Source: Microbacterium sp. Root166 (lineage in GTDB: Bacteria > Actinomycetota > Actinomycetes > Actinomycetales > Microbacteriaceae). Taken from it: a DNA stretch of 64,000 nt. Below, in pieces: positions 44,701 through 64,000 of the stretch; position 1 is the first letter of the stretch, and each line of letters opens with the position of its first letter. The translations under genes were made by a program, and so were the position numbers. The stretch spans positions 1,255,241 through 1,319,240 of the forward strand of contig NZ_LMGL01000001.1 of assembly GCF_001427145.1 (NCBI RefSeq), given 5' to 3'. The notes beneath the pieces are model-generated. The model did not search any database, had not been told where the DNA came from, and saw only the letters and a list, made by a program, of their open reading frames with translations.

Positions 44701-44761
44701 GGCGTCTCCTTCGACGGGGCGGGACCATTGTCCTGTCGCGGTTCGCGCCGTTGACGGCCAC

Positions 44762-44781
44762 TTCTCATTCAACGGGATTCC
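44762..44781 (-). promoter_or_regulatory. Candidate IclR operator before pobA
   Basis: On the minus strand GGAATCCCGTTGAATGAGAA matches the pcaH palindrome at 45565 in about 15 of 20 positions. It lies between the IclR stop and the pobA start, suggesting pobA has its own IclR-controlled promoter. Confidence 0.6.
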
Positions 44782-44784
44782 GCG

Positions 44785-45537: not shown

Positions 45538-45564
45538 GGCCTCATGGTCGCACAGCGCGCATCC

Positions 45565-45585
45565 GATTCCCATTGGATGGGAATC
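45565..45585 (+). promoter_or_regulatory. IclR operator between regulator and pcaH
   Basis: GATTCCCAT (45565-45573) and ATGGGAATC (45577-45585) form a perfect 9-base palindrome with a TGG centre in the divergent IclR/pcaH promoter region. It is a candidate site for autoregulation and pca control. Confidence 0.75.
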
Positions 45586-45658
45586 ACCACCACGATCGGC
45601 CGACCGGAGCGCACGATGCTGTAAGACGTACCGCCCTCCTGTGTCGAAGGAGACACCC

Positions 45659-46480: not shown

Positions 46481-47046
46481 TGCCCGCGGACCGCCCACCG
46501 AAGACGCACCTGCCGACCCCCGGCCAGACCGTGGGCCCGTTCTTCGCCTACGGCGTGGAGTACGCCAAGATGCACGAGGTCGCCCACCCGCACTCGCCGG
46601 GCGCGATACTGCTCGACGGGGTCGTCCGCGACGGCGCGGGCAACCCGATCCCGGACGCCTTCATCGAGATCTTCGCGGCGGACGAGGACGGCTCCGTGCC
46701 CCGCGCACGCGGGGCGTTCCGTCGCGACGACCACACCTTCACCGGGTTCGGCCGCGCGTTCACGGACGACGAGGGTCACTACGAGTTCTGGACGCGGAAT
46801 CCCGGCTCCGTCGACGGCGCCGCGCCCTTCTTCGCCGCGATCGTCTACGCCCGGGGCCTGCCGGACAAGCTGCACACCCGCATCTACCTCCCCGACGATG
46901 CAGGAGCGCTCGCCGCGGATCGGCTGCTCTCCTCGCTCGACGAGGACGACCGCGCTACCCTCGTCGCGACGCGCCTTCCCGGTGGTGGACTCCGCCACGA
47001 CATCCGGCTGCAGGGCGAGAAGGAGACCGTGTTCCTTGTCTTCTGA
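46480..47046 (+). CDS. pcaG: Protocatechuate 3,4-dioxygenase alpha subunit
   Basis: A 188-residue subunit with the same beta-sandwich as PcaH but without the iron ligands. TPGQTVGPFFAYGV at the N-terminus and RGAFRRDDHTFTGFGRAFTDDEGHYEFWTRNPG in the middle identify it. It pairs with PcaH to form the active site. The start overlaps the pcaH stop, and it overlaps pcaB by 11 bases. Confidence 0.94.
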   Translation: MPADRPPKTHLPTPGQTVGPFFAYGVEYAKMHEVAHPHSPGAILLDGVVRDGAGNPIPDAFIEIFAADEDGSVPRARGAFRRDDHTFTGFGRAFTDDEGHYEFWTRNPGSVDGAAPFFAAIVYARGLPDKLHTRIYLPDDAGALAADRLLSSLDEDDRATLVATRLPGGGLRHDIRLQGEKETVFLVF

Positions 47047-48388: not shown

Positions 48389-49152
48389 CACCCGCGCTCA
48401 CCCTGACCGATCCCGTCGGCCCCGACGGAGCGCCGCTGCTCGTGCTCGGGCCCTCGCTGGGCACCTCGACGATCTTGTGGGAGGCGGCGACGCCTGTCCT
48501 CTCGACCCGGTACCGGGTGACGGCCTGGGACCTTCCCGGCCACGGCGACTCCCCGGCCGGCGACGGCGGCTTCACCGTCGCCGACCTCGCCGACGCGGTC
48601 GCCGCCGCCGTCGACGAGCCGACCTTCCGCTACGCCGGCGTCTCGCTCGGCGGGGCGGCCGGGCTCGAGCTCGCGCTCCGGTATCCGCATCGCGTCGAGG
48701 CGGCGGTGATCGTCGCCTCGGGTGCGCAGCTCGGCGAGCCGGCAGCGTGGCACGAGCGCGCCGCACAGGTGCGGGCCGAGAGCACCTCGAGCCTGATCAT
48801 CGCGTCGGCGCAGCGCTGGTTCGCCGAGGGGTCGGTGGCGCGGCATCCGGAACTGACCGGCCGCCTTCTGCACGCCCTGCAGTGCGCTGACGACGAGAGC
48901 TATGCCCGGTGCTGCGAGGCGCTCGCCGCGTACGACGTCCGCGCGAGACTGAACGACATCGCGACCCCGACGCTCGCGCTCTGGGGTGAGCACGACGCGG
49001 TGGCGCCCGAGGTCAAGGCGGTTGAGATCGCCGATGGCGTGCAGCGGGGCGAAGCGGCGATGGTCGCCGGTGCCGCGCACCTGCCGCCGGCCGAGCAGCC
49101 CGAGGCGGTCGCCGACGCGGTGCTGAGGTTCTTCGCGAGTGTGGAGGGATGA
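48385..49152 (+). CDS. pcaD: 3-oxoadipate enol-lactonase
   Basis: A 255-residue alpha/beta hydrolase. The nucleophile Ser lies in GVSLGGAAGLELA, the acid in WGEHDAVAPE and the His in GAAHLPPAEQPEAV. It hydrolyses the enol-lactone to 3-oxoadipate. It overlaps pcaB by four bases. In some actinobacteria PcaD is fused to PcaC (PcaL); here they are separate genes. Confidence 0.9.
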   Translation: MTPALTLTDPVGPDGAPLLVLGPSLGTSTILWEAATPVLSTRYRVTAWDLPGHGDSPAGDGGFTVADLADAVAAAVDEPTFRYAGVSLGGAAGLELALRYPHRVEAAVIVASGAQLGEPAAWHERAAQVRAESTSSLIIASAQRWFAEGSVARHPELTGRLLHALQCADDESYARCCEALAAYDVRARLNDIATPTLALWGEHDAVAPEVKAVEIADGVQRGEAAMVAGAAHLPPAEQPEAVADAVLRFFASVEG

Positions 49153-49156
49153 ACGC

Positions 49157-49561
49157 ATGACTCGACCCGATGGCGAGGGCCTCACCGACGAGCAGCGCTA
49201 CGACCAGGGGATGGCCGTGCGCCGCGCGGTGCTGTCCGACGCCCACGTCGACCGCGCCGACGCCGCGACGACCGAGCTCACCGCGGACTGGCAGGACTTC
49301 ATCACCCGTGTCGCGTGGGGAGACGTCTGGTCGCGGCCGGGCCTCGATCGCCGTGCCCGCTCGGTGGCGGTGATCACCGCGCTCATCGCGCACGGTCACC
49401 ACGAAGAGCTCGAGATGCATCTGCGCGCCGCGGTGCGCAACGGGCTCACCGTCGACGAGATCCGCGAGGTCATCCTGCAGTCGGCGATCTACTGCGGCGT
49501 CCCGGCGGCGAACAGCGCCTTCCGCATCGCCGCCGCCGTGTTCGGCGAGGAGACCCCGTGA
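49157..49561 (+). CDS. pcaC: 4-carboxymuconolactone decarboxylase
   Basis: A 134-residue AhpD-like/CMD-family protein: RYDQGMAVRRAVLSDAHVDRA, TRVAWGDVWSRPGLDRRARSV, HGHHEELEMHLRAAVRNGLTVDEIREVILQSAIYCGVPAAN. It converts the carboxymuconolactone to the enol-lactone used by PcaD. ATG 49157 is preferred over 49139 for its spacing from GGAGGG. It overlaps pcaI. Confidence 0.94.
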   Translation: MTRPDGEGLTDEQRYDQGMAVRRAVLSDAHVDRADAATTELTADWQDFITRVAWGDVWSRPGLDRRARSVAVITALIAHGHHEELEMHLRAAVRNGLTVDEIREVILQSAIYCGVPAANSAFRIAAAVFGEETP

Positions 49562-50316
49562 TCGACAAGACGGTGACGGATGCCGCCGCCGCCGTCGCCG
49601 GCATCCCCGACGGAGCGACGGTCATGATCGGCGGATTCGGCCGGGCCGGGCAGCCTGTGGAGCTCATCGATGCGCTCATCGAGAGCGGTGCGACGGACCT
49701 CACGATCGTCAACAACAACGCGGGCAACGGCGACACCGGTCTGGCTGCGCTCCTCGCGAGGAGGCGGGTGCGCAGGATCGTCTGCTCGTTCCCGCGCCAG
49801 CACGACTCCTGGGTCTTCGACGGTCTCTACCGGGCCGGCGAGATCGAACTCGAGATCGTGCCGCAGGGAAACCTCGCCGAGCGCATCCGTGCGGCAGGCT
49901 CCGGGATCGGTGCCTTCTTCTCGCCCACCGGGGTGGGGACCGAGCTCGCCGACGGCAAGGAGGAGCGCACGATCGACGGACGCCGCTACGTCCTCGAGTA
50001 CCCCATCCGCGCGGACTTCGCGCTGATCTCGGCGCTCAAGAGCGACCGCTGGGGCAACCTCGTCTACCGCGAGACCGCGCGCAACTTCGGCCCGATCATG
50101 GCGACCGCGGCCACGACCACCGTGGTGCAGGTCGACGAGGTCGTCCCGCTCGGCTCCCTCGATCCCGAGAGCGTCGTCACTCCCGGGATCTTCGTCGACC
50201 GCGTCGTCGCCGTCGGTCCGCGTGCCTGGCTCCGCGACGGCGGGTTCGTCGGGGGAGTGGACGTCGAAGGACGCCCGGCGGCCGCCCCGGTCGCCACCGT
50301 GGAGGAGAACCAGTGA
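49558..50316 (+). CDS. pcaI: 3-oxoadipate CoA-transferase subunit A
   Basis: A 252-residue CoA-transferase family I alpha subunit with the glycine-rich oxyanion loop IPDGATVMIGGFGRAGQP and FFSPTGVGTELADGKE. With PcaJ it moves CoA from succinyl-CoA to 3-oxoadipate. GTG 49558 overlaps the pcaC stop (GTGA). Confidence 0.94.
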   Translation: MIDKTVTDAAAAVAGIPDGATVMIGGFGRAGQPVELIDALIESGATDLTIVNNNAGNGDTGLAALLARRRVRRIVCSFPRQHDSWVFDGLYRAGEIELEIVPQGNLAERIRAAGSGIGAFFSPTGVGTELADGKEERTIDGRRYVLEYPIRADFALISALKSDRWGNLVYRETARNFGPIMATAATTTVVQVDEVVPLGSLDPESVVTPGIFVDRVVAVGPRAWLRDGGFVGGVDVEGRPAAAPVATVEENQ

Positions 50317-50984
50317 GCACCCGGATCAGCCGCGACGACCTCGCCCGCCGGATCGCCGCCGACATCGCCGAGGGGTCGTACGTCAACCTCGGCATCGGAG
50401 CGCCCACCATGGTCGCGAACTTCCTGCCCGACGACCTCGAGATCATCCTCCACACCGAGAACGGACTGCTCGGCATGGGCGGCGCCCCCTATCCCGGCAG
50501 CATCGATCCCGACCTCATCAACGCCGGCAAGCAGCCGGTGACCGCGCTGGCGGGCGCCGCGTACTTCCATCACGCCGACTCGTTCGCGATGATGCGCGGC
50601 GGGCACCTCGATGTGTGCGTGCTCGGAGCCTTCCAGGTCTCGCAGACCGGAGACCTCGCGAACTGGTCGACGGGCGCGGCCGGCGCGATCCCCGCCGTCG
50701 GCGGGGCGATGGACCTGGCGATCGGCGCCAAGCAGGTCTTCGTCATGACCGACCTGCTCACCAAGACCGGCGAGTCCAAGCTCGTCGCCGCCTGCACCTA
50801 CCCGCTCACCGGGGTCGGCTGCGTCACCCGGGTCTACACCGACCACGCCGTCTTCGACGTGGACGGCGGCCGGTTCGCCGTGCGCGAGACGTTCGGCGAC
50901 AACACGCTCTCCTCGCTCGCCGAGCTGACGGGCCTCGACCTCATCGATAGGACGGATGCCGCGGCATCCGTCGCCGGAGACTGA
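50313..50984 (+). CDS. pcaJ: 3-oxoadipate CoA-transferase subunit B
   Basis: A 223-residue beta subunit. The catalytic Glu lies in LHTENGLLGMGG (the ExGLLG signature), preceded by YVNLGIGAPTMVANFLPDD. GTG 50313 overlaps the pcaI stop. A perfect 22-base palindrome lies in its last codons. Confidence 0.94.
   Translation: MSTRISRDDLARRIAADIAEGSYVNLGIGAPTMVANFLPDDLEIILHTENGLLGMGGAPYPGSIDPDLINAGKQPVTALAGAAYFHHADSFAMMRGGHLDVCVLGAFQVSQTGDLANWSTGAAGAIPAVGGAMDLAIGAKQVFVMTDLLTKTGESKLVAACTYPLTGVGCVTRVYTDHAVFDVDGGRFAVRETFGDNTLSSLAELTGLDLIDRTDAAASVAGD
50951..50972. repeat. Perfect 22-base palindrome inside the pcaJ end
   Basis: The halves are GACGGATGCCG and CGGCATCCGTC, so GGATGCC is immediately followed by its complement. 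It encodes TDAAASV near the PcaJ C-terminus, 14 bases before pcaF. Confidence 0.9.
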
Positions 50985-50985
50985 C

Positions 50986-52155
<1,170 letters not shown>

Positions 52156-52167
52156 CGGTGTACCGCG

Positions 52168-52962
52168 TCATGCGCGAGATGCCAGCTCACGAATATATTG
52201 AATCGCTTCGGCTGAAGATGTTTGGGGCACCGGCTCGAGGCCGATCGGCCCGTCGTAACCGGTGGCACGCAAGACAGTGAAGAATGCGGGCCAATCGATC
52301 TCACCCGTTCCAGGCTCGCCGCGCCCCGGTGCGTCTGCGATCTGCACGTACTGGATGAGTTCACCAGCGTTGGTGAGCTCGACCTCGGGATTCTCGCCCT
52401 CCGTGACCGAGTGGTAGAGGTCGTAGAGGACGCCGAATGAAGGTGAGTCCACTCCGCGAGCCACATATACGGCGTCGGCCGTGCGATCCAGAAGCATGCC
52501 GGGATGATCGACGCGGCCGTTGACCGCCTCCAGGACGAGCGTGATTCCTGAGCCGCTGATCTGGGTCGTTGCCTTTCGGAAGATCTCGACCAGCTCATCC
52601 AGCTGCGTCCGTCGCCTCGAGCCTCCAAACCCTGTGCCGCCACTGACGACGAGACGCGGGCACTCGAGCGTTTGCGCGATCCGAACTCCCTCGTCGAGCT
52701 TCCGATAGAACTCTGAATGGTCCTTCGGTGGAAGCATGAAGTGGGTTCGCGGTTCAGCAGTCTGCAGGGTCAGCTGCGTGTTCGTCTCCTCCAGCGCTGT
52801 CTTCAGGGCGGCTATGTCCTTCGGGACCGAAGGGAAGTCCGCGCCGGTGGGACCCCACATCTCCACAGCCGTGAACCCGGCGTCGGCGGCGGCGCGCACG
52901 CGGTCGTGGTAGTCGCCCGCCTCTGTGAATAGAAGTTCTATGTTGGCAGCAAGTTGGTACAC
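52168..52962 (-). CDS. Hydroxypyruvate-isomerase-like sugar isomerase/epimerase
   Basis: A 264-residue TIM-barrel protein of the AP-endonuclease-2/Hyi superfamily. It is a close paralogue of 62232-63026, sharing ANIELLFTEAGDYHDRVRAA at the N-terminus, HSEFYRKLDEGV, GSGITLVLE, ARGVDSP and ADAPGRGEPGTGxIDW. Candidate metal ligands are Glu in LVLEAVN, Asp in LYDLYHS and Glu in GLEPVP. GTG 52962 is chosen because it gives the same length as the paralogue; GTG 52983 is also in frame. It may act on a keto-sugar from the glycoside pathway. Confidence 0.85.
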   Translation of the reverse strand: MYQLAANIELLFTEAGDYHDRVRAAADAGFTAVEMWGPTGADFPSVPKDIAALKTALEETNTQLTLQTAEPRTHFMLPPKDHSEFYRKLDEGVRIAQTLECPRLVVSGGTGFGGSRRRTQLDELVEIFRKATTQISGSGITLVLEAVNGRVDHPGMLLDRTADAVYVARGVDSPSFGVLYDLYHSVTEGENPEVELTNAGELIQYVQIADAPGRGEPGTGEIDWPAFFTVLRATGYDGPIGLEPVPQTSSAEAIQYIRELASRA

Positions 52963-53100
52963 GAGGCCGTTTCCTGTCTGCACGGGGATCGTCAGGGCTG
53001 TCCCTGTTGCGAGTCGAACTTCGGACTTGGCGAAAGCATGATGCAGCGGGTCTCCGCAAGACGATTCGCTGCAAACGGGCTCCGCCCAGAATCGGTCGCG

Positions 53101-53132: not shown

Positions 53133-54746
53133 TTATCGCTGGGTCGCCCAGAATCCGCAGTTGTGGTCGTCCGCGAAGGTGCGGAACACCTCATCCCCTC
53201 CGGACTGCAGGCGCAGCACGGGGTGATCGAGTGACGTGACCGGCGCCCAGGGTGATCCCAGCGTGCCAGTCTCGGCGAACTCACCCCAATACAGCTTCAT
53301 CCGCGTCGCGAGCTCGTTCTCCGTCGCGGTGAGCGGGCGTTCCACATCGGAGTATGCGAACAGGTACGCCAGGTCCGCCGAGTGCGCACTCGCCATGTCT
53401 AGTCCGGCGATACTCATGCCCTGGTTCGTGGGTGACGTCGGGTCGTCGAACTCGTACTCATAGACCGGGACTTGTGTGGCCGCGAGCTCCGCGAACTCGT
53501 ACGAACGGCACCCGAAACCACTGTCGGTATCGATGGCCGCCAGGGCATACGCGGGCTTCTCGAAGTCGGAGGCCGGGTACTGGGCGAGGATGGCATCCGC
53601 CCGCGGCCCGTGGAACTGTCGCACCTTAGCCTCGTACTGCTCGACAGTCATCGACCCGGCATCCGGGCCCACGCTGAAGTAGATGCCCTGCTTGCCCTCG
53701 TATCGCGTGGAGCCGAGGAGCAGCGGTACCTTGTGCCAATCGCCGGCGGCGATGGCCTCGAGCGGCGATGTCGGAACCGCCGGCACCCCGTGCACCGGAG
53801 TGAAGCGTCCATTGACCCGCATCAGTGCGCCGACGTCGAGTCCGCGCAGGCAATCCATCCGGTCGGCTGGCGACGTGCACCCGAGGGAGGCTGCTGCCGC
53901 GCCGCCGCGGACAACGGCGGTCGAGGCGGCGCTGGATGCGGGGAACGTGCATGGACCGCTCTGCAAGATGGCCCTATCGAACAGGCCTTCGGTCAGCGGC
54001 GACACGAGAAGGCTGCAGATCGACATCGCACCCGCTGACTGCCCGTCGAGGGTGACGGAGCCCGGGTCGCCGCCGAAGGCGGAGATGTTCCTGCTCACCC
54101 ACGTGAGCGCGGCAGCCTGGTCGAGGATGCCGAAGTTGCCGACGGCTTCGCCCATCTGCTCGACTGCGAGGAATCCGAGCGCCCCGAGTCGGTAGTTCAC
54201 GGACACCACGACGGACTGGGTCAGCCGGGCCAACTCAGAACCGTCGAACTCACCGCCGCTGCCCCCACCGAATCCCCCGCCGTGAATCCAGACGATGACG
54301 GGCAGCCGGTGCCCGGGTGCAGCGCGCCCGGGACCGTAGACGTCGAGGTACAGGCAGTCTTCGCTCGTGACCTGGCCACTCGACACGTCTCCCATCCCGC
54401 CTTGGAGACACGCGGGAGACGCTGTCGTGGCGTCCCGCACCCCCCGCCACTTGGCGGGCTCGCTGGGGGCGGCGAACCGAAGCTCGCCCACCGGCGGTGC
54501 CGCGAAGGGAATGCCGCGGAACGACTGCACGCCGTTCGCCTGCACCCCGCGGAGGTTCCCCTGCTCCACGTGCACGACGCGCGACTTCGAAGATGACCCC
54601 CCGACGGCCCCGGTCGCAGGCGCCGCGGTCAGCCCACTGACGACGATCACGATCGCGGCCACCATCGCGACGGCGAGCGCAGCGACCCGGGCTCGGTGAA
54701 CCGCTCGTTCGGAAGCGCCATTTGGCGCGAGATGCCAATGCGACAC
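53133..54746 (-). CDS. Exported type-B carboxylesterase
   Basis: A 537-residue carboxylesterase. An N-terminal hydrophobic segment (about 20-40, VAALAVAMVAAIVIVVSGLT) followed by AAPATGA suggests export. The oxyanion loop WIHGGGFGGGSGG and nucleophile Ser in LDGQSAGAMS are present, with FRGIPFAAPPVGELRF typical of the family and several cysteines for disulphides. GTG 54746 has AAAGGAG at good spacing. It could remove acyl groups from plant glycosides outside the cell before import; the substrate is not known. Confidence 0.85.
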   Translation of the reverse strand: MSHWHLAPNGASERAVHRARVAALAVAMVAAIVIVVSGLTAAPATGAVGGSSSKSRVVHVEQGNLRGVQANGVQSFRGIPFAAPPVGELRFAAPSEPAKWRGVRDATTASPACLQGGMGDVSSGQVTSEDCLYLDVYGPGRAAPGHRLPVIVWIHGGGFGGGSGGEFDGSELARLTQSVVVSVNYRLGALGFLAVEQMGEAVGNFGILDQAAALTWVSRNISAFGGDPGSVTLDGQSAGAMSICSLLVSPLTEGLFDRAILQSGPCTFPASSAASTAVVRGGAAAASLGCTSPADRMDCLRGLDVGALMRVNGRFTPVHGVPAVPTSPLEAIAAGDWHKVPLLLGSTRYEGKQGIYFSVGPDAGSMTVEQYEAKVRQFHGPRADAILAQYPASDFEKPAYALAAIDTDSGFGCRSYEFAELAATQVPVYEYEFDDPTSPTNQGMSIAGLDMASAHSADLAYLFAYSDVERPLTATENELATRMKLYWGEFAETGTLGSPWAPVTSLDHPVLRLQSGGDEVFRTFADDHNCGFWATQR

Positions 54747-54970
54747 ATCAACTCCTTTGTTGAGTAGTGAAGATATGAGGTCGCCCGCGCGACCCACTCC
54801 GAGCATTAAGTCATATACCGACTCACTTAAGCAAGAAATAGTCGAAAGGCTTCACTAACAAGGAGCGCGCCCTTCCTTATGCGCCTATCAGGAATCCTTA
54901 TGCATAAACCTGACTGAAGTTGCTAGCCTCGAAGAGCGCGATGCCGCGCCTGATCAGAGAGCGAGCACCG
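54747..54970. promoter_or_regulatory. Divergent regulatory region, esterase / glycoside operon
   Basis: It is AT-rich relative to its surroundings. CCTTATGCG (54875-54883) and CCTTATGCA (54896-54904) lie 21 bases apart, the second inside the palindrome TTATGCATAA (54898-54907). Similar CTTATG words stand before the binding protein at 58942, suggesting one regulator for both operons. Confidence 0.5.
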
Positions 54971-56272
54971 ATGCTTCTCGAGCGAGACCTCATCCAATCT
55001 GTCGGATTTCGGAACGTCCGCGAGGGCGACGAGATCCGCGGATTCCAGTTCCGCGTTCGGATGCCCTCCTACCGCGGCATGGCCGCCTCCCTCATCGACG
55101 GCATCGGCGTGCGCATCCCGGGCCTGGTCGATGTCGCCCCCGATGTGCCGACGTGGACACTGCAGGGGCAGACGTACACCCTCGCCGAGCTGTGGGAGAG
55201 CGACGGGGTGCGCTGGCAGCTGGAGGAGGCGGCCGTCGTGACCGTTCCCCTTCCCGGGGGTCTGCCGGACGGCATCCACGAACTGTCGATCGACCTGCGC
55301 CTGCGCATGTCCTACATCCCGCAGGAGCACCAGCCGAGCCGGTACGAGATCGCGAAGCACGTCACGCTCACACCGGAGGCCGCTGGCCGGCCGTTCAGCT
55401 ACGGCGTCTCGCTGTACAGCTACATGGGCGATTACGGCACGGTCATGGACCTCGAGACAGCACTGCGCTCGATCGCCGACCTCGGGGCGACGGGGGTTGA
55501 GATCCTCGGCGAAGGCCACATCCCGAACTACCCCGAGCCTGCGCAGGAGTGGGTCGACGAGTGGTTCCGGCTGCTCGGCGTGTACGGGCTCGAGCCGACG
55601 AACTACGGCTCGTGGATCGATACCCGGCTCCACTCCAGCGGAGCGAACGGCCGCGACATGACCGCCGACGAGGGCGCGGCCGCCCTCCAGCGCGACCTGC
55701 GCCTTGCCAAGCGCCTCGGCTTCCGCTTCGTCCGACCCAAGATCGGGGTGGTCTCGGGCGACCTGGTCCCGCATCCGATCTGGACCGAGGTCGTCGAGCG
55801 ATCCCTCTCGCTCGCCGAGGAGCTGGACGTCGTGATCTGCCCGGAGATCCACTCTCCGACCCCCATCAAGCACGAGGTCGTCGATGATTACATCGAGCTG
55901 ATCCGCCGCACCGGCACGAAGCACTTCGGGCTCCTGCTGGACACGGGCATCTTCCAGGACCGCCCGATCCCGTTGGCTCCCGGCGAGCTCCCCGGCCGCC
56001 GGCCGGCCTTCCTCGACGGCATCGGGGTCGACCCGGCCGACGTCTTCGACATCATCGACCACGTCGTCTTCATCCAGGCGAAGTTCCACGACATCGACGA
56101 CTCGCTCGAGGACCAGCAGATCCCCTGGGAGCCCGTCCTGCGTGCGCTGAAGGAGGCAGGCTACACCGGCTACCTTTCCAGCGAGTACGAGGGGGAGCGG
56201 ATCCCCTGGCGCTCGATCGAGCAGGTCCGCCGCCAGCACTCGCTCATGCGCCAGGTCGCCGACCGGCTCTGA
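54971..56272 (+). CDS. Fused C-glycoside-deglycosidase-like protein (DUF6379 + isomerase barrel)
   Basis: A 433-residue protein. Residues 1-140 match DUF6379, the beta-subunit family of bacterial C-glycoside deglycosidases (DLIQSVGFRNVREGDEI, MPSYRGMAASLIDGIGVRI, TYTLAELW). From about 142 a TIM barrel matches the alpha subunit (FSYGVSLYSYMGDYGTVM, GATGVEILGEGHIPNYPEP). Candidate metal ligands are Glu292 (PEIHSP), Asp324 (LLDTGIF), His373 (QAKFHDID) and Glu405 (SSEYEGER). Known enzymes have the two parts as separate subunits, so a fusion is unusual. ATG 54971 fits the family N-terminus. First gene of a tandem pair. Confidence 0.8.
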   Translation: MLLERDLIQSVGFRNVREGDEIRGFQFRVRMPSYRGMAASLIDGIGVRIPGLVDVAPDVPTWTLQGQTYTLAELWESDGVRWQLEEAAVVTVPLPGGLPDGIHELSIDLRLRMSYIPQEHQPSRYEIAKHVTLTPEAAGRPFSYGVSLYSYMGDYGTVMDLETALRSIADLGATGVEILGEGHIPNYPEPAQEWVDEWFRLLGVYGLEPTNYGSWIDTRLHSSGANGRDMTADEGAAALQRDLRLAKRLGFRFVRPKIGVVSGDLVPHPIWTEVVERSLSLAEELDVVICPEIHSPTPIKHEVVDDYIELIRRTGTKHFGLLLDTGIFQDRPIPLAPGELPGRRPAFLDGIGVDPADVFDIIDHVVFIQAKFHDIDDSLEDQQIPWEPVLRALKEAGYTGYLSSEYEGERIPWRSIEQVRRQHSLMRQVADRL

Positions 56273-56285
56273 ACAGGAGACAGCC

Positions 56286-57761
56286 ATGCCCAACGGACTC
56301 ATCCACGACGACAGCCTCCGCCTGCACCCGGACGGACTCGCACTGCGCTTGACGCTGCCGTGGTACCGCAGCCTCTGGCTGTCGTCGGTCACGAGCCTCG
56401 ACCTCACCGTCGACGGCGAGCCCGTGCCGCAGGGCGATCTGACGTTCGTACTCGGTGATCGCGAGTACACGCTCGACGAGCTGCCCGAGCAGAGCGAGAC
56501 CCTCTGGTACCTGCAGGAGCACCCGCTCCTGGTCGTCCGTCGCGACCGCGGCGTCGCTCTCGGCGAGCGGCACAACGTCACCCTCGCCGGGCAGTTGCGT
56601 CTGCCGTACATGCAGATCGCGCCCGGCGAGAACGGTGCTCCCGGCATGTATGTGCCGAACTTCGTGCGCGACCAGCTCACGTTGACCGTGAGGGATGCCG
56701 ATGCCCCCGCGCCGGCGCTGGTGACGGACGTGCCGCCACCCCCGCCGGCGATCGACGCCGATCCCTTCCAGCTCGGGCTGACGCTCTATTCGGCGAGTGC
56801 GGAGTTCCGCGCCGGCTGGTTCGACTTCGACGGTCTGCTGGACCGGGTCGCCGAGCTGGGCATCGGACCGGGGATCGAGATCGTGGCATCCCAGATGGTG
56901 CCCACCTACCCGGTGGTGTCCGAGGAGTTCGTGCGCAGCTGGCGGGCCGCGTTCGACAGGCACGGCTTCGCCGCCAGCTCCTTCGGCGCGAACCTCGACA
57001 TGGGGCGCCGCCGCGACCGCGACATGACGCCGGACGAGGAGTTCGAGTTCAGCGAGCTCATGCTCCAGGGGGCGAAGAAGCTCGGCTTCCCGCTGGTGCG
57101 GATCCAGAGCGCGAAGTCTGAGCTGCTGCGGCGCCTCCTGCCGATCGCCGAGGAGCTCGAGCTGCAGCTCGCGTACGAGATCCACGCGCCGCTGGGCCCC
57201 AACGCGGAGCCCATCCTCAAGGTGCGCGAGACGTACGCCGAGCTGAACTCCCCGCTCCTCGGCTTCGTCGCCGACTTCTCGTCGACCATGCACGCGATGT
57301 CGCCCACGCTGCTGCGTGCGGTCCGTCGTGCCGGGCTCGACGACGAGGCGCTCGGGCGTCTCCAGGAGATCTGGGCGACGGATGCCACGATGCGAGAGCG
57401 CCAGGAGGAGTTCATCGGCTATCTGCGGGGACGCGATTTCGATCCGGCACGACTGGGATCGTTCGCGCACCTCGCCTTCAACATGCACGGTCATGTCGAC
57501 CCGCGGGAGTGGGCCGACATCATGCCGCAGATCATGCACGTGCACGCGAAGTTCTACGACATCGACGAGCACGGGCAGGAGCCCGCGATCGACTACCCGG
57601 AACACGTCCGCGTCTTCGTCGAAGGGGGATACCGCGGCTACTGGTCGAGCGAGTGGGAGGGGCACGCCTTCGCCGAGCTGGGCGAGGTCGACCCGCTACT
57701 CCTGGTGCGCAGGCAGCACGACCTCATCCGTCAGGCGATGCGAGAGCTGCAGCCGTCCTGA
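56286..57761 (+). CDS. Second fused DUF6379 + isomerase-barrel protein
   Basis: A 491-residue paralogue of the preceding gene with the same layout: a diverged DUF6379-like domain (about 1-150; WYRSLWLSSVTSLDLTVDG, YTLDELPEQSETLW), a Pro-rich linker and a TIM barrel from about 160 (FQLGLTLYSASAEFRAGWFD). Ligand positions Glu298 (YEIHAP), Asp330 (VADFSS) and Glu456 (SSEWEG) are kept, but the equivalent of His373 is Tyr423, with new histidines at 418 and 420 (MHVHAKFYDID). Activity or metal binding may differ. ATG 56286 has AGGAGA. It may form a complex with its neighbour. Confidence 0.75.
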   Translation: MPNGLIHDDSLRLHPDGLALRLTLPWYRSLWLSSVTSLDLTVDGEPVPQGDLTFVLGDREYTLDELPEQSETLWYLQEHPLLVVRRDRGVALGERHNVTLAGQLRLPYMQIAPGENGAPGMYVPNFVRDQLTLTVRDADAPAPALVTDVPPPPPAIDADPFQLGLTLYSASAEFRAGWFDFDGLLDRVAELGIGPGIEIVASQMVPTYPVVSEEFVRSWRAAFDRHGFAASSFGANLDMGRRRDRDMTPDEEFEFSELMLQGAKKLGFPLVRIQSAKSELLRRLLPIAEELELQLAYEIHAPLGPNAEPILKVRETYAELNSPLLGFVADFSSTMHAMSPTLLRAVRRAGLDDEALGRLQEIWATDATMRERQEEFIGYLRGRDFDPARLGSFAHLAFNMHGHVDPREWADIMPQIMHVHAKFYDIDEHGQEPAIDYPEHVRVFVEGGYRGYWSSEWEGHAFAELGEVDPLLLVRRQHDLIRQAMRELQPS

Positions 57762-57764
57762 GGT

Positions 57765-58709
57765 TCACGCGATGACGTGAGCGTTCTCCTCGACGATGCG
57801 GCCCGCTTCCTCGAACAGCCCGCGCATCCAGGTGTGCTCCGGGTCACGGGTGTGGCTTGGGTGCCACCACAGGGCATTGACGAGCGGCGTCGCATCGAAC
57901 GGCAGGGGCACCACCCGGATGCCGCCGATGCGGAGCATGTGGGGGGCCAGCGCCGCCTGCACGAGACCGATCCGGTTCGTTCCGCTGACGAAGTGCCCGA
58001 CCGACAGGAAGCTCTCGAGTACCACCTCGATGTGCGGCTCCACCCCGAGCTGCTGAACCTGACGGGCGGCGGAGGTGAAGGCGGACCGCGACTGGTACGT
58101 CATCACCCAGGGCAGCTCCGACATGTTCTCCATCGTGAGCTCGGCGCCGACGGCCGAGTTGGTGTCGGACACGACCGCCAGCCAGCTGTCGTGCCACAGG
58201 TCGAGGAACGGCAGATCCGAGACCGGGCCATGCGGGATCACCATGCCGTCGGCGGATCGCAACTTGGTCGCGGCGTCCTCGACGATGACGGGGTTGTGCA
58301 GCATGAAGCGGAATCGCACCCCGGGCGAACGCTCGGCGGCGAGCCGGGATACGACGGTTCCGAGGGTGACGAAGCCGTAGTCCGACCCGTAGATCGAGAA
58401 CTCCCGGGTGGATTCCTCCGGACTCCATGTCGCCTGGCTCTCGAACACGCGCCGTGCGGCTTCCAATGCGGTGGTGGTGTGTTCGATGAGTCGCAGCGCG
58501 AACGGCGTGAGCTCGTAGGTGTTGCCACGGCGGGCGAGGATCTGATCGCCGAAGTGGATGCGAAGCCGCCCGAGCGAGGCGCTCAGAGCGGGCTGGCTGA
58601 GATGCAGGCGCTCAGCGGCGCGGGTGACGCTCTTCTCCGTGAGCAGCGCGTCGAGCGCGACGAGCAGGTTGAGGTCCAGGCGTGAGAGCAGGGCGTGATC
58701 GGTCACCAC
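57765..58709 (-). CDS. LysR-family regulator
   Basis: A 314-residue LysR protein with N-terminal HTH (LDLNLLVALDALLTEKSVTRAAERLHLSQPALSASLGRLR) and a two-lobe effector domain. The NLLVALDALL start places it near the NodD/LeuO/aromatic-sensing group. It faces the fused deglycosidase genes and is divergent from the binding-protein operon, so it is the likely local activator. GTG 58709 is used (a second GTG follows at 58706). Confidence 0.9.
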   Translation of the reverse strand: MVTDHALLSRLDLNLLVALDALLTEKSVTRAAERLHLSQPALSASLGRLRIHFGDQILARRGNTYELTPFALRLIEHTTTALEAARRVFESQATWSPEESTREFSIYGSDYGFVTLGTVVSRLAAERSPGVRFRFMLHNPVIVEDAATKLRSADGMVIPHGPVSDLPFLDLWHDSWLAVVSDTNSAVGAELTMENMSELPWVMTYQSRSAFTSAARQVQQLGVEPHIEVVLESFLSVGHFVSGTNRIGLVQAALAPHMLRIGGIRVVPLPFDATPLVNALWWHPSHTRDPEHTWMRGLFEEAGRIVEENAHVIA

Positions 58710-58941
58710 GACGTGAACCTCCGATGCAAGAGCGGTCGATCCACTGTATCAACGGAGGCTATGCCCACGGGGGTTGGTATACGCGGGGTCGATGGTGTCG
58801 AAAATCGACCGGGGTCGTCCCGGCTTATGCCGCATATCGTAAACCCTTATGTGCGTTTCCGGCACATGATCGTGATACTGGACTCACAGCACAGGCGCTC
58901 GAATGGACGAGCCGCCGACAATGAAGTCAGAAAGGCTGGAC
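58710..58941. promoter_or_regulatory. Divergent regulatory region, LysR / ABC operon
   Basis: GGTCGAT (58787-58793) and ATCGACC (58804-58810) form an inverted repeat of LysR size. CTTATGC near 58824 and CCTTATGTGCG near 58846 resemble the sites before 54971. No gene is supported in this interval. Confidence 0.5.
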
Positions 58942-60243
58942 ATGTCACAGCACAGTCACACCGCTCTGCGTCGAGGAGCCCTCATCGCGGTCCCCGTCAT
59001 CGGAGCGCTGCTCCTGGCCGGCTGCTCCGGCTCCGGCGGCGATTCGAACGACTCGGGCGACGAAGGCGCGGCCGAGTTCTCGTTCACGTTCGCGACCTCC
59101 AATAACCTCGAGAGCCCGTACGAGACGCTGTCGAACGCCTACATGGAGGCGAACCCCGACGTCACCATCACGACGAACCCGACGCCGAACGACAAGTACG
59201 GCGAGACCATCCGCACGCAGTTCCAGGCCGGCAACGCGGCCGACGTCGTGCAGACGACGCCCGGATCCGGCGACGCCCGCGGCATCATCCCACTCGCCGA
59301 GGCCGGGTTCCTCGAACCGCTCGGCGAGACCGCGGCATCGCTCGTGCCGCAGGGCAGCGAGACGATCTTCGAGATCGACGGCGAGGTCTACGGCCAGCCG
59401 ATGGACTTCACCATCGCGGCAGTCGTCGCGAGCATGGGCACGGCTGCCATGAACGGCCTCGATGCGTGGCCGACGAGCGAGGACGAGATGTACGACGCGT
59501 GCACCGCGCTCGCCGGTGACGGCAAGTCGCTCCTCGTGGTCGCCGGCGCTGCGCCCCCCAACGCGGGGCTCACCGCGCAGGGCATCGCCGCCACCCGCGT
59601 CTACGCCCAGGATCCCGACTGGAACGAGCAGCGTGCCGCCGGCGACACGACGTTCGCCGAGAGCGAGGGCTGGGCCGACACCCTCCAGACGATCATCGAC
59701 CTGAACGAGGGCGGCTGCTTCCAGGCCGGTGCCGAGGGTGGTGGCTTCGACGCCATCACCAACGGGCTGTCTCAGGGCACGTCGGTCGGCAGCTTCATCC
59801 CCTCGGGCTCGGCCGTCGAGATCGCGACCGCGGCACCGCCGGAGGCCGACTTCAAGGTGCAGCCCTTCCCGCCGGCAGATGGAGGCGACCCCTACATCAT
59901 CGCGAGCTCGAACTACACGATCTCGATCAACGCCGCATCGGAGAAGAAGGACGCCGCCGCCGACTTCGTGGAGTGGCTCGCCACGCCCGAGGCGCAGGAG
60001 ATCTACTACGAGGCATCCGGCCTCCTGCCCATCTCGAACTACCAGGACCTCGATCTGAGCGAGACCATCTACTCGCCCGTCGTCGACCTGCTGGCCGAGG
60101 GCTCGTACACGCCGCTGCCGAACAACATCTGGCCGAACCCGGCCGTGTACGAGGCGCTGCAGGTGGGCGTCCAGGGCTTGCTCACCGGTCAGAAGACCGT
60201 CGACCAGGTGCTCCAGGACATGGACAGCGCCTGGGGCGAGTGA
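58942..60243 (+). CDS. Solute-binding lipoprotein of the glycoside importer
   Basis: A 433-residue family-1 binding protein. Signal and lipobox (ALIAVPVIGALLLAGC) lipidate the mature Cys. The mature part is about as long as, and strongly similar to, the orphan protein at 38541. ATG 58942 gives a normal signal peptide and has AAAGG upstream; ATGs at 58903 and 58921 would add a charged extension. Start of an importer operon. Confidence 0.92.
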   Translation: MSQHSHTALRRGALIAVPVIGALLLAGCSGSGGDSNDSGDEGAAEFSFTFATSNNLESPYETLSNAYMEANPDVTITTNPTPNDKYGETIRTQFQAGNAADVVQTTPGSGDARGIIPLAEAGFLEPLGETAASLVPQGSETIFEIDGEVYGQPMDFTIAAVVASMGTAAMNGLDAWPTSEDEMYDACTALAGDGKSLLVVAGAAPPNAGLTAQGIAATRVYAQDPDWNEQRAAGDTTFAESEGWADTLQTIIDLNEGGCFQAGAEGGGFDAITNGLSQGTSVGSFIPSGSAVEIATAAPPEADFKVQPFPPADGGDPYIIASSNYTISINAASEKKDAAADFVEWLATPEAQEIYYEASGLLPISNYQDLDLSETIYSPVVDLLAEGSYTPLPNNIWPNPAVYEALQVGVQGLLTGQKTVDQVLQDMDSAWGE

Positions 60244-60248
60244 TCACC

Positions 60249-60283
60249 GTGACCGCCCGGGCGCATGACGCCCGGGCGGTCAC
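60249..60283 (+). terminator. Strong hairpin between binding protein and permease
   Basis: A perfect 15-base GC-rich stem, 60249-60263 with 60269-60283, loop CATGA, starting five bases after the stop. With permease genes continuing 39 bases later, it probably attenuates or stabilises, giving more binding protein than permease. Confidence 0.75.
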
Positions 60284-60321
60284 TCCCACCTCCGCACGAT
60301 GACGTACGAACACGAGGAATC

Positions 60322-61281
60322 ATGACCGCGACACTCAACACCGAGACCGAGGCGCTGATCGTTCCGAAGCGCGATCGCCGCGGCCGTCGTCGCGATGCCG
60401 CCACCCGCCGGCCCGGTCTGCTGAAGTTCGGGTACTGGTGGTGGGCGCTGCCGGGCATCCTGCTCGTCCTCGCCATCCACTACGTCGCCACCGCGATCGG
60501 CGGATTCTTCGCCTTCACCGACTGGTCGGGCATCGGCGACTTCACCTGGATCGGGTTCCAGAACTTCGTCGAGATCTTCAACGATCCGACGCAGATCGGC
60601 GCCGTCACCAACACGCTCTTCCTCGCGTTCGCGTCGGTCATCCTCAGCAACATCGCCGGGCTCGCACTCGCTCTCGGCCTCAACCGCGGTCTGAAGACCC
60701 GCTACGCACTCCGCGTCCTCTTCTTCATGCCGGTGGTGCTGAGCCCCCTCGCGGTCTCGTACGTCTGGAAGTTCATCTTCGACTTCAACGGTCCGATCAA
60801 CGGCGTGCTCCGGGCGATGGGCCTCGACGAATTCGCCAAGGCGTGGGTCGCCGATCCGACCTGGGCGATCTGGACGGTGCTCGTCGTCATCGTGTGGCAG
60901 AACACCGGCTTCGCGATGGTCATCTACATGGCCGGCCTCGCCGCCGTGCCGATCGAGATCGAGGAGGCGGCGGCCATCGACGGCGCGACCCTGTGGCAGC
61001 GCTTCTGGCACGTGACCTTCCCGTCGATCCGACCGGCCGTGGCCATCGCCACGACACTCGGGCTCGTCAACGGCCTGCGGGTCTTCGACCAGATCATGGC
61101 GCTCACCGGCGGCGGTCCGGCGGGAGCGACCGAGACCCTCGCGACCCAGGTGTACAAGGAGTCCTTCGCCCTCGGCAACTTCGGCTACGGCGCGGCGCTG
61201 GCCCTCGTGCTGACGCTCATCATTCTCGTGTTCGCCGTCATTCAGCAGCGAGTGACCAGCGGCCGTCCCGAGGAGGACTGA
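60322..61281 (+). CDS. Glycoside ABC permease, MalF type
   Basis: A 319-residue six-helix permease. The EAA loop reads EIEEAAAIDGATLWQRFWHVTFP. The basic N-terminus (PKRDRRGRRRDAATRRPG) is cytoplasmic. ATG 60322 has CGAGGA upstream. It pairs with the next gene. Confidence 0.92.
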   Translation: MTATLNTETEALIVPKRDRRGRRRDAATRRPGLLKFGYWWWALPGILLVLAIHYVATAIGGFFAFTDWSGIGDFTWIGFQNFVEIFNDPTQIGAVTNTLFLAFASVILSNIAGLALALGLNRGLKTRYALRVLFFMPVVLSPLAVSYVWKFIFDFNGPINGVLRAMGLDEFAKAWVADPTWAIWTVLVVIVWQNTGFAMVIYMAGLAAVPIEIEEAAAIDGATLWQRFWHVTFPSIRPAVAIATTLGLVNGLRVFDQIMALTGGGPAGATETLATQVYKESFALGNFGYGAALALVLTLIILVFAVIQQRVTSGRPEED

Positions 61282-61282
61282 C

Positions 61283-62119
61283 ATGTTCCGCTACACCAAG
61301 CTCACCGCGGCCCGCGAAGTGGTCTTCTGGATCATCGCCGTGATCTTCCTGGCGCCGTTCTACTTCCTGGTCACCACGGCCTTCAAGTCCGACGAGGAAG
61401 TGCTGACCACTTCGAACCTCGCCCCGCCCACGAGCCTGGACTTCAGCAACTTCACCGAGGTCCTCACGGCGCAGGGCAACTCCAACGTGATCCAGGGCCT
61501 GGTCAACAGCATCCTGATCACCGCCGGCAGCATCCTCGGCCTCATCCTGCTGGGGGCGATCACGGGATATGTCATCGCACGGAGCACCCGCCGGTGGAGC
61601 CGGGCGGTGTTCTACCTCTTCCTGATCGCGATCGTGCTGCCCACGCAGCTCGGCACCGTGCCGTTGTACATCGGGGCGAGGGCCATCGGCCTCACCGGGT
61701 CGATCGGGGGCATGATCATCCTCTACACCGGCATGCTGCTTCCGCTGTCGATCTTCCTCTACGCCGGATTCTTCCGCGGCCTCGGCACGGAGTACGAGGA
61801 GGCGGCGACGATCGACGGCGCCTCCAGGACGCAGATCTTCTTCCGCATCGTGCTTCCGCTGATGTCGCCCGCCACCGGGACGGTGGCCATCCTGGCCGGT
61901 CTCATCGTGTGGAACGACTTCTTCACGTCGCTGATCTTCCTCGGTGGCTCGCAGAACCAGACGCTGCCTGTGGCGATGTACTACTACATCGGCTCGCTGG
62001 TGTCGTCGTGGAACAAGATCTTCGCGATCGTCATCGTGTCGATGATCCCCATCCTGGCCTTCTACCTCTTCGCCCAGAAGCGCTTCATCCAGGGCTTCGC
62101 AGGTGGGTTGAAGGGCTGA
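61283..62119 (+). CDS. Glycoside ABC permease, MalG type
   Basis: A 278-residue permease with six helices; the EAA loop is EYEEAATIDGASRTQIFFRIVLP. No ATP-binding protein follows, so a shared MsiK-type ATPase elsewhere is implied. The stop overlaps the remains of a SnoaL-like gene. Confidence 0.92.
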   Translation: MFRYTKLTAAREVVFWIIAVIFLAPFYFLVTTAFKSDEEVLTTSNLAPPTSLDFSNFTEVLTAQGNSNVIQGLVNSILITAGSILGLILLGAITGYVIARSTRRWSRAVFYLFLIAIVLPTQLGTVPLYIGARAIGLTGSIGGMIILYTGMLLPLSIFLYAGFFRGLGTEYEEAATIDGASRTQIFFRIVLPLMSPATGTVAILAGLIVWNDFFTSLIFLGGSQNQTLPVAMYYYIGSLVSSWNKIFAIVIVSMIPILAFYLFAQKRFIQGFAGGLKG

Positions 62120-62231: not shown

Positions 62232-63026
62232 ATGTACCAGCTCGCACCCAATATCGAACTGCTCTTCACAGAGGCCGGCGACTATCACGACCGCGTGCGG
62301 GCGGCCGCGGCATCCGGTTTCACGGCCGTCGAGATGTGGGGGCCTACGGGTGTCGACGCGCCTTCGACGCCCAAGGACCTGCCGGCGCTGAAGGCGGCGC
62401 TGGATGAGACGGGGCTGCAGCTGACCGCGCAGCTCGCCGAGCCCCGCACGCAGTTCATGATCCCGCCGTGGGACCACTCCGAGTTCTACCGCAAGCTCGA
62501 CGAGGGCGTCGAGATCGCCCATGTCCTGGGCACCCCGCGGATGGTCGTCGGAAGCGGCACCGGATTCGGCGGATGGAAGCGCCAGGTGCAGCTCGACAAG
62601 CTCATCGAGATCTACCAGAAGGCCATCGCCCAGATCGAGGGATCGGGGATCACGCTGGTGCTCGAGCCGGTGAACGTCCGTGTCGATCACCCCGGGTCGC
62701 TGCTGGACCGCACGAGCGAGGCGGTCTACGTCGCGCGCGGCGTCGACTCCCCGTTCTTCGGCGTGCTCTACGACCTGTACCACTCGACCGTCGAGGGGGA
62801 GGACGTCGCGGCCGAGCTCGCGAACGCCGGCGACCTCATCCGGTACGTCCAGCTCGCCGACGCTCCGGGACGCGGCGAGCCCGGCACGGGTGCGATCGAC
62901 TGGGAGGCCCGTCTGGGCGAGCTCCGCGCCTCGGGGTACGACGGCCCCATCGGCCTCGAGTACTACCCGCAGGCCCCGTCGGCCGAGTCGGTGAAGCGGA
63001 TCGTCGCACTGGCGGCCGCCGCATGA
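62232..63026 (+). CDS. Hydroxypyruvate-isomerase-like sugar isomerase/epimerase
   Basis: A 264-residue TIM-barrel protein, paralogue of 52168-52962 in opposite orientation. It shares NIELLFTEAGDYHDRVRAAA near the N-terminus, HSEFYRKLDEGV, GTGFGG and ADAPGRGEPGTG, with candidate ligands Glu in LVLEPVN, Asp in LYDLYHS and Glu in GLEYYP. ATG 62232 follows TAAGGA. Its stop overlaps the GMC oxidase start, linking it to glycoside oxidation; a keto-sugar substrate is inferred. Confidence 0.88.
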   Translation: MYQLAPNIELLFTEAGDYHDRVRAAAASGFTAVEMWGPTGVDAPSTPKDLPALKAALDETGLQLTAQLAEPRTQFMIPPWDHSEFYRKLDEGVEIAHVLGTPRMVVGSGTGFGGWKRQVQLDKLIEIYQKAIAQIEGSGITLVLEPVNVRVDHPGSLLDRTSEAVYVARGVDSPFFGVLYDLYHSTVEGEDVAAELANAGDLIRYVQLADAPGRGEPGTGAIDWEARLGELRASGYDGPIGLEYYPQAPSAESVKRIVALAAAA

Positions 63027-64000
63027 GCGCGCGCGCCTACCCGGACGCGGTCGACGTGGTGATCGTCGGCAGCGGCCCGACCGGAGCCGCATACGCCCGC
63101 ATCCTGAGCGAGGAGGCGCCGAACGCGACGATCGCGATGTTCGAGGTCGGACCCACCGTGTCGGACCCACCCGGTGCGCACGTGAAGAACATCGAGGATC
63201 CCGCCCGGCGATCCGCCGCCCAGCACGCATCCCAGGGCCCCTCGGCGGCAGCGGAGACGGTCAGCAACCCCGGAGCCGTCAAGAGCGGGCGGCGTCTCGC
63301 CCGGGCCGGCACCTTCCTGCTGGAAGACGGCTATCAGCAGCCCGGCGAGGACGGCCTGCCCGTCGCCGCGATGTCGAGCAACGTGGGTGGCATGGCGGCC
63401 CACTGGACCGCAGCGTGCCCGCGCCCCGGTGGCAGCGAGCGCGTCCCCTTCGTGCCCGACCTCGACGAACTGCTCGACGAGGCCGAGCGCCTGCTCGGCG
63501 TGACGACCCACGCCTTCGACGGCTCGCCGTTCGGCGACCTGGTGCGCGAGCGCCTGGCCAAGGCCGTCGACGAGGGGCGCGTCGACGAGACGCGCGTGCA
63601 GCGGATGCCGCTCGCCGTGCACCGCCGTGAGGACGGCCGCCTCGTATGGTCGGGATCCGACGTGGTGCTCGGCGAGACTACCCGGGCGAACGAGAACTTC
63701 TCCCTGCACGACGAGTCGCTCGTCACGCGGGTGCTGCTCGAGGACGGACGTGCGGTGGGCGTCGACGTGCGCGACGTGCGCTCAGGCGCGACCCACACCG
63801 TGCGTGCCCGCTTCGTCGTGGTCGCCGGCGATGCTCTGCGCACCCCGCAGCTGCTGTGGGCCTCGGGCATCCGCCCCGAGGCTCTCGGGCGCTACCTGAA
63901 CGACCAGGCCCAGATCGTGTTCGCGGTGCGACTGCGCGATGTGCCCCCGCTGGCCGCCGACGTGCCGGCAGACGGCGCGCTCGCGGAGTACAGCGGCGTC
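63023..64000 (+). CDS. GMC / pyranose-oxidase-like flavoprotein (CarA-like), 5' part
   Basis: The first 326 residues of a GMC-superfamily FAD oxidoreductase running off the window. The Rossmann motif VIVGSGPTGAAYARIL lies at 13-28. SSNVGGMAAHWTAACPR contains His127 in the VGGMxxHWT context where pyranose 2-oxidase carries its covalent flavin. FVVVAGDALRTPQLLWASGI is a standard later FAD block. Relatives include bacterial C-glycoside 3-oxidases, which make the 3-keto glycoside cleaved by DUF6379-type deglycosidases. The start overlaps the upstream stop. Confidence 0.85.
   Translation, partial: MSARAYPDAVDVVIVGSGPTGAAYARILSEEAPNATIAMFEVGPTVSDPPGAHVKNIEDPARRSAAQHASQGPSAAAETVSNPGAVKSGRRLARAGTFLLEDGYQQPGEDGLPVAAMSSNVGGMAAHWTAACPRPGGSERVPFVPDLDELLDEAERLLGVTTHAFDGSPFGDLVRERLAKAVDEGRVDETRVQRMPLAVHRREDGRLVWSGSDVVLGETTRANENFSLHDESLVTRVLLEDGRAVGVDVRDVRSGATHTVRARFVVVAGDALRTPQLLWASGIRPEALGRYLNDQAQIVFAVRLRDVPPLAADVPADGALAEYSGV

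Follow-up and report, generated by a model that had tools for sequence, protein, structure and literature searches.

The window analyzed here, a 64,000-nucleotide stretch of the genome of Microbacterium sp. Root166, carries two genes in tandem, called A and B below, and we found that each encodes, in one chain, a fusion of the beta-subunit domain of the C-glycoside deglycosidases (CGDs) to a metal-dependent TIM barrel. It is highly probable that each protein is a complete and self-contained lyase of 3-oxo-C-glycosides and that the pair forms part of an island for C-glycoside catabolism. The genes and their parts are as follows.

54971 to 56272, forward strand: gene A, 433 amino acids, a single-chain C-glycoside deglycosidase of the Microbacterium testaceum CGD type
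54971 to 55372, forward strand: beta-subunit domain of A (amino acids 1 to 134, PF19906), with Tyr34, the equivalent of Tyr39 of the PuCGD beta subunit
55397 to 56269, forward strand: catalytic barrel of A (amino acids 143 to 433), with E292, base H294, D324, Q369, K371, E405 and E407
56286 to 57761, forward strand: gene B, 491 amino acids, a single-chain C-glycoside deglycosidase of the AgCGD2 type with lid helices
56286 to 56687, forward strand: beta-subunit domain of B (amino acids 1 to 134), with Tyr27, likewise equivalent to Tyr39 of PuCGD beta
56688 to 56765, forward strand: proline-rich interdomain linker of B (amino acids 135 to 160), from the sequence and the secondary structure of the model
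56766 to 57758, forward strand: catalytic barrel of B with lid (amino acids 161 to 491), with E298, base H300, D330, H420, K422, E456 and E458

The two open reading frames (ORFs) lie 13 bases apart on the forward strand, and an AGGAG stretch precedes the ATG of B. Protein A matched the Pfam families CGDB (PF19906; 5.2e-32, 110.5 bits against a cut-off of 27.6, amino acids 3 to 115) and AP_endonuc_2 (PF01261; 1.3e-16, 61.5 bits against a cut-off of 31.1, amino acids 166 to 423). Protein B matched PF19906 (1.4e-16, 60.8 bits, same cut-off, amino acids 16 to 108), and its PF01261 match (4.2e-7, 30.3 bits) fell slightly below the curated cut-off of 31.1; the barrel of B was assigned from its match to PDB chain 7dnm_A, the AgCGD2 alpha subunit (8.1e-129), together with a fold match. 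The N-terminal domains of both proteins also matched PDB chains named "DUF6379 domain-containing protein." An earlier note, made from the sequence alone, had described two tandem single-chain fusions of DUF6379 to a barrel, resembling C-glycoside deglycosidases, and the ORFs, the profile matches and the PDB sequence and fold matches bear out that description.

Relationship of A and B to solved deglycosidases

Along its full length, A matched PDB entries 8qrz and 8un2 (phmmer, 2.6e-261), both titled "Microbacterium testaceum C-glucosyl deglycosidase (CGD), wild type" and released on 2025-04-23. A predicted model of A (pLDDT 89.6, pTM 0.87) superposed on these structures over 432 to 433 columns with a template modeling (TM) score of 0.95 to 0.96, 86% identity and a VIA Z of 50; among the fold neighbors of A, CGDs scored VIA Z 31 to 50, against 24 and below for epimerases. 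A is thus a full-length single-chain orthologue of the M. testaceum CGD, in what we call the 8qrz subgroup. The earlier note had taken the two subunits to be separate polypeptides otherwise, which does not hold, since 8qrz is one 435-residue chain. As single ORFs, A and B depart from the arrangement of the PuCGD and AgCGD2 type, in which alpha and beta occupy separate chains; because 8qrz is a single-chain CGD, separate chains are not a requirement of the wider family, and, given that A matches 8qrz and 8un2 throughout, the single-chain form has already been solved. A search of open-licence papers, without their supplements, returned no paper on 8qrz and no described fused CGD in the parts of those papers that were available, and one may exist.

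Protein B is not a full-length orthologue of the 8qrz subgroup and grouped with AgCGD2 in our trees. Its model (pLDDT 83.4) fitted AgCGD2 domain by domain, with 7dnm_A at TMt 0.91 and 58% identity and 7dnm_B at TMt 0.85 and 42% identity. The barrel of B is 59% identical to that of AgCGD2 and 32% identical to that of EuCGD; the corresponding values for A are 33% and 42%, and the barrel of A has no lid helices, as in EuCGD. In the alignment, N399 and M400 in the pocket of B correspond to N248 and M249 of AgCGD2. No fused AgCGD2-type protein was seen in the PDB searches, and none is described in the available parts of the literature examined.

Metal site and catalytic residues

In AgCGD2, the metal ligands are E147, D179, H269, K271 and E305, with H149 as the base and E307 as a helper (PMC8563793; this and the other papers cited here were available in part). 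Aligned to these, B matched at every position (E298, D330, H420, K422 and E456, base H300, helper E458), and A matched with one exchange (E292, D324, Gln369, K371 and E405, base H294, helper E407). Both proteins therefore carry the base His and the helper Glu, and both also have the beta-domain Tyr (Tyr34 in A, Tyr27 in B). The solved M. testaceum CGD has the same Gln as A, and the metal His is thus not a defining feature of that subgroup.

These alignments invert the contrast drawn in the earlier note, which had given A a full E/D/H/E metal set (292, 324, 373 and 405) and had the His of B replaced by Tyr423. The canonical metal His is kept in B, as H420, and is Gln in A; His373 of A and the Tyr of B, which is residue 424, both fall at AgCGD2 position 273, outside the published ligands and variable in the alignment (Y, F, W, I, H or N).

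We followed these residues through named genomes with two patterns derived from A, a scan that selects A-like loci and cannot gauge the frequency of the split form. It gave 81 relatives, of which 80 loci were kept, including partial ones (L135, with 65 residues at a contig end; L125, cut at 188 residues) and broken ones (L117, with a frame-broken A; L074, with a frame-broken B; L089, with B cut by a contig end). Eight positions of A (E292, H294, D324, Q369, K371, H373, E405 and E407) were identical in 77 of 79 ORFs, the exceptions being L117 and L125; nine positions of B were identical in 69 of 70, with L089 as the exception. The beta-domain Tyr was kept in all 79 A and all 70 B ORFs.

Since His373 follows Gln369 by four residues, at the end of the strand predicted to hold both (E365-372), and is kept in all 77 readable A ORFs, it might have taken over from the lost His as a ligand in a remodeled metal site. 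We consider this shift unlikely. In the alignment, the position of His373 holds Phe or Tyr in each of the seven further barrels that carry the Gln (three fused, four split), and PuCGD has His at both the 369- and the 373-equivalent positions; Gln is for these reasons the likelier ligand, and His373 was set aside. The same exchange of the metal His for Gln was seen in a second lineage, the split barrels L138 and L141 near 8qvc, which are related to the Deinococcus aerius CGD, itself with His. We infer from the alignment that the Gln probably predates His373 of A, has appeared in two lineages and serves as a metal ligand.

Distribution of the fused genes

Fused A was present at 79 of the 80 named loci and fused B at 70 of the 80, in records titled Microbacterium, Agromyces, Subtercola, Pseudoclavibacter, Salinibacterium, Arthrobacter and Pseudarthrobacter, among others, and the A-B tandem pair occurs in many soil actinobacteria, of both Microbacteriaceae and Micrococcaceae. 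The A-bearing loci include A. globiformis NBRC 12137 and P. siccitolerans 4J27, the sources of studied pathway enzymes; for P. siccitolerans, the available part of PMC10646112 describes four separate CGD genes near an oxidase and names no fused ones. In 67 of the 70 named loci that have both genes, B starts at most 110 bases after A.

A occurred without fused B at 9 of the 80 named loci: L074 (with its frame-broken B), L080 and L125 (both at contig ends), L117, and five that were checked further (L073, L084, L102, L116 and L130). With G021 added, the check covered six A genomes without an adjacent B (completeness is known for G021 alone, at 100%). Five of them had no B, their best match being an alpha2-type barrel at 53 to 55% identity, and the sixth, Naasia lichenicola (L073), had B elsewhere at 79%.

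PF19906 matches with E up to 0.001 were found in 5 of 396 sampled genomes of the phylum (3 over the family cut-off), in 16 of 396 of the order and in 8 of 58 close relatives, with the window's own genome included each time. Among the 16 order genomes, nine carry one or more fused ORFs, and seven have split forms only. In the genus, A matched at 1e-100 or better in 30 of 149 genomes, G868 among them at just 49% identity, and a scan of viral contigs with A found no relative.

The earlier note would, by its own terms, be refuted if a survey showed the fusion to be already common and characterized. For A this applies in two respects, as the fusion is widespread and an orthologue has a solved structure, although no paper on 8qrz was found among the open-licence papers searched. 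The A/B pair is real yet largely known, and the fusion type of A is not new; such novelty as remains concerns the fused AgCGD2-type form of B, the recurrence of fusion, the metal site with Gln and the fifth unit described below.

Some copies are damaged or of doubtful origin. A is frame-broken in Naasia aerilata (L117:6001-7300), and B is frame-broken in a record titled Planococcus sp. (L074:7363-8716); intact copies of both exist in relatives. Three records titled Stenotrophomonas (L080), Fulvimarina (L089) and Planococcus (L074) carry A at 80 to 84% identity, and these contigs are probably mislabeled or contaminating.

Genomic neighborhood and proposed pathway

The genes between B and the end of the window are as follows.

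57765 to 58709, reverse strand: LysR-type regulator
58903 to 60243, forward strand: solute-binding protein of a sugar ATP-binding cassette (ABC) transporter
60265 to 61281, forward strand: ABC transporter permease 1
61283 to 62119, forward strand: ABC transporter permease 2
62232 to 63026, forward strand: hydroxypyruvate-isomerase-like barrel, far under the TIGR03234 cut-off
63023 to 64000, forward strand: GMC oxidase, cut by the window end (full gene read at L005:13023-14543)

The stretches fetched for the 80 named A loci include a relative of the LysR-type regulator (>65% identity) in 57 cases. The best PDB match of the GMC oxidase was the glycoside 3-oxidase PsG3Ox (7qf8, 5.2e-260), and from its sequence the enzyme would supply the 3-oxo-glycoside. 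Past it, beyond the window, lie a beta1-alpha1 pair, an alpha2-beta2 pair whose alpha2 is 84% identical to that of AgCGD2, a Gfo/Idh/MocA enzyme and a candidate hydratase barrel that matches the 2-hydroxy-3-keto-glucal hydratase 8ro4 (1.8e-34). The island thus holds four CGD units with catalytic residues. Further downstream is another GMC oxidase (L006:13391-15010, forward strand), which shares 42% identity with the first.

On the other flank of A and B are a second hydroxypyruvate-isomerase-like barrel (52168-52983, reverse strand), also far under the family cut-off, and a carboxylesterase divergent from A (53133-54806, reverse strand; COesterase, 2.4e-112), which may act on acylated glycosides. 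Directly upstream, positions 43519-52155 carry a 4-hydroxybenzoate 3-monooxygenase, a PcaR-like regulator (under the cut-off) and protocatechuate/beta-ketoadipate genes; glyoxalase/dioxygenase, FAA-hydrolase, FAD-binding and amidohydrolase-type genes lie further downstream. These aromatic-degradation flanks would fit breakdown of the aglycone in the same region.

The domain anatomy, homology, residues, conservation and neighborhood are observed, and they point to the activity, pathway order and regiospecificity that we propose here. Plant C-glycosides would be imported by the ABC transporter and oxidized at C3 of the sugar by the GMC oxidase. The divalent metal of the barrel, held by E, D, Q or H, K and E, would bind the resulting 3-oxo-sugar; the catalytic His (H294 in A, H300 in B) would remove the C2 proton; and the Tyr of the fused beta domain would stabilize the oxyanion of the aglycone, so that the C-C bond would be cleaved by beta-elimination to give the aglycone and 2-hydroxy-3-keto-glucal. 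The neighboring barrel related to AtHYD would then hydrate the glucal, and the Gfo/Idh/MocA enzyme would reduce the 3-keto-sugar. From the oxidation onward, this four-step scheme has been published for the CGD class (PMC13273386), and its steps can be assigned provisionally to the genes of the island. In PuCGD, a Tyr39beta-to-Phe exchange loses >99% of C-cleavage, and the isolated alpha subunit is inactive on C-glucosides (PMC10628242); the fusion would provide in the same chain the beta subunit that PuCGD requires as a partner.

The suggestion in the earlier note that A and B differ in specificity stands to the extent that they are paralogues probably differing in this respect. It may be that A prefers C6- and B prefers C8-glycosides. 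AgCGD2 accepted a C8 substrate only (PMC8563793), and its Met249 is kept in B as Met400, where C6 enzymes are reported to have Ala or Gly; in a docking model of EuCGD, the C8-glycoside orientin clashed and the C6-glycoside homoorientin fitted (PMC8563793).

Alternative readings

Given that AtOGE-type lyases share the fold and the metal chemistry of A and B, that PuCGE also cleaves 3-keto-phlorizin (PMC10628242) and that Gln369 sets A apart from published two-chain C-lyases, A or B could act mainly as a 3-oxo-O-glycoside lyase with little C-C cleavage. This we find improbable. The beta domain and its Tyr, which in PuCGE is needed for C-C cleavage and hardly for O-cleavage according to the available account, are kept in every A and B ORF of the named loci, and the 86% orthologue of A is titled a C-glucosyl deglycosidase. 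AtOGE is marked by the lack of a beta subunit and by His132 as a metal ligand; A and B have the beta domain fused and, as in CGDs, Glu at that position.

The close tandem spacing of A and B, in the window and across the named loci, would suit the earlier idea that they are the catalytic chain and the partner chain of one heteromer. Against this, the catalytic residues are complete in each protein; B is absent from five of the six A-bearing genomes that were chosen because A has no B next to it; and the PDB searches with A and B showed no B-like chain in 8qrz or 8un2. On the first two of these findings we rejected the partner pair, to which we give very little credence. Scarcely any weight attaches to A and B being ordinary sugar isomerases or epimerases with an accessory domain, as the PF01261 barrel and the 8qrz molecule name "Sugar phosphate isomerase" might suggest, because their closest sequences and folds are all CGDs, well above the epimerases, and they have a CGD-type beta domain and a CGD neighborhood.

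Several points weigh against A and B as self-contained C-glycoside lyases, which we nevertheless prefer. Gln369 of A occupies the position of the metal His of published two-chain CGDs, and exchange of that His for Ala "dramatically reduced" the activity of PuCGD and MiCGD (PMC8563793). As a whole, the model of B superposed poorly on single-chain 8un2 (root mean square deviation 17.8 A, TM score 0.50, 24% identity), implying that its two domains are arranged in another way or were placed wrongly by the prediction, and the model lends no support to an inter-domain active site like that of A. For the hydratase candidate, 2zds, a protein of unknown role, is a much better match (1.3e-153) than 8ro4. 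The C6/C8 assignment draws on distant relatives, the barrel of A being just 42% identical to that of EuCGD. Finally, the reading as a whole is built on sequence, models and context, and what 8qrz cleaves is taken here from its PDB title.

Probable repeated fusion of the two subunits

We built a barrel tree of 54 rows including the outgroup (25 fused) and a beta-domain tree of 65 rows (26 fused). The fused state requires at least 5 changes in the former, 4 of them forced by well-supported branches, and 6 in the latter, 5 of them so forced. A joined EuCGD, on a long branch, with support of 100/99 and 95/94 in the two trees, and B joined AgCGD2 with 74/100 (barrel) and 100/99 (beta domain). Placing the A and B fusions in one clade was rejected in both trees (p-AU 5.9e-11 for the barrel and 2.8e-8 for the beta domain), and on this ground a single origin of the two was rejected. 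Independent fusion on several occasions explains the trees most simply; a single old fusion that later split several times is a less likely alternative. The trees carry warnings of long branches (EuCGD; 9m3a with G657) and of odd letter composition in several rows.

In G229, from another family of the phylum, the two domains of A lie on separate adjacent frames, beta and then alpha, with the canonical metal His, a layout that could give rise to a fusion. G657, from another family of the order, has a second fused-fused tandem of a different lineage (L152:100-1563 and L152:1575-3005, both reverse strand), which joins 9m3a in the barrel tree, a grouping flagged as possible long-branch attraction. 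In G144, a weak PF19906 match (1.8e-5, below cut-off) stands at the start of an ORF of ~500 amino acids (L035:1486-2985, forward strand) whose remainder resembles, by eye, a uroporphyrinogen-decarboxylase-type barrel; this may be a beta-sandwich fused to another enzyme class. A similar weak match lies in a long frame of G374.

A fifth unit outside the pair

A fifth alpha/beta unit, with no Pfam match over cut-off, lies ~7 kb beyond the window end (genome C1, 1326030-1327469), at ~13 kb downstream of B.

L006:790-1797, reverse strand: alpha subunit of the fifth unit
L006:1819-2229, reverse strand: beta subunit of the fifth unit

It keeps the metal residues E, D, H, K and E, but the base His is Gln, the helper Glu is Gly and the beta Tyr is Ile. 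These exchanges were present in all 6 barrels and all 7 beta domains compared and in all 20 genus loci fetched (9 fused, 11 split), which were the best scoring of 32 genus genomes that have the unit; the row for L101 (Tyr, fused), in which its B and its fifth unit are mixed, was set aside, L047 lacks two of the positions, and two rows duplicate loci of the 20. When two draws of 149 genus genomes were treated as one set, by their listed handles, the fifth unit was found in all 30 A-matching genomes, 2 genomes had it without A, and 117 had neither. The closest PDB match of a fused fifth unit (G017) was the AgCGD2 alpha subunit (9.2e-18), and a literature search for reports of a CGD paralogue that lacks the base found nothing relevant.

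The loss of three nonmetal catalytic residues, the retention of the metal site and the co-occurrence with A suggest that the fifth unit carries out another reaction of the same pathway. Tentatively, we picture Microbacterium islands with up to five alpha/beta units and repeated fusion, in which the fifth is a non-lyase enzyme and perhaps a needed pathway step; it may, for example, handle the 3-keto-glucal or a 3-keto-sugar. A conserved unit without the catalytic residues poses a directly testable question.

Comparison with known systems

Single-chain deglycosidases need no co-assembly of two subunits and would be handy for biocatalysis, including the reverse synthesis of aryl-C-glycosides, a reaction shown for two-chain PuCGE (PMC13273386). 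If the regiospecificities of A and B are complementary, as they probably are, this would explain how soil bacteria handle mixed C6- and C8-flavonoids.

The M. testaceum CGD shares with A its beta-alpha order, length, Gln369, His373 and 86% identity over the whole chain; sequence divergence was the one difference found. EuCGD (DfgA-DfgB; PDB 7bvs/7dre), the solved two-chain enzyme nearest to A, also has no lid and joins A in both trees, but differs in its two chains, reported to form an alpha4-beta4 octamer, and in its canonical metal His. PurBC, CarBC and DgpBC (PuCGD) share the reaction class of A and B, as far as their available descriptions go, and differ in having two chains, with no fused form in those descriptions. 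AgCGD2 (AgCarB2-C2 of Arthrobacter globiformis, PDB 7dnm/7dnn) resembles B most, with 42% identity in the beta domain besides that of the barrel and with the lid, metal set, base and pocket Asn and Met all kept; it is a two-chain alpha-beta heterodimer (PMC8563793), whereas in B both domains share one chain, the beta domain leading, and a proline-rich linker joins them.

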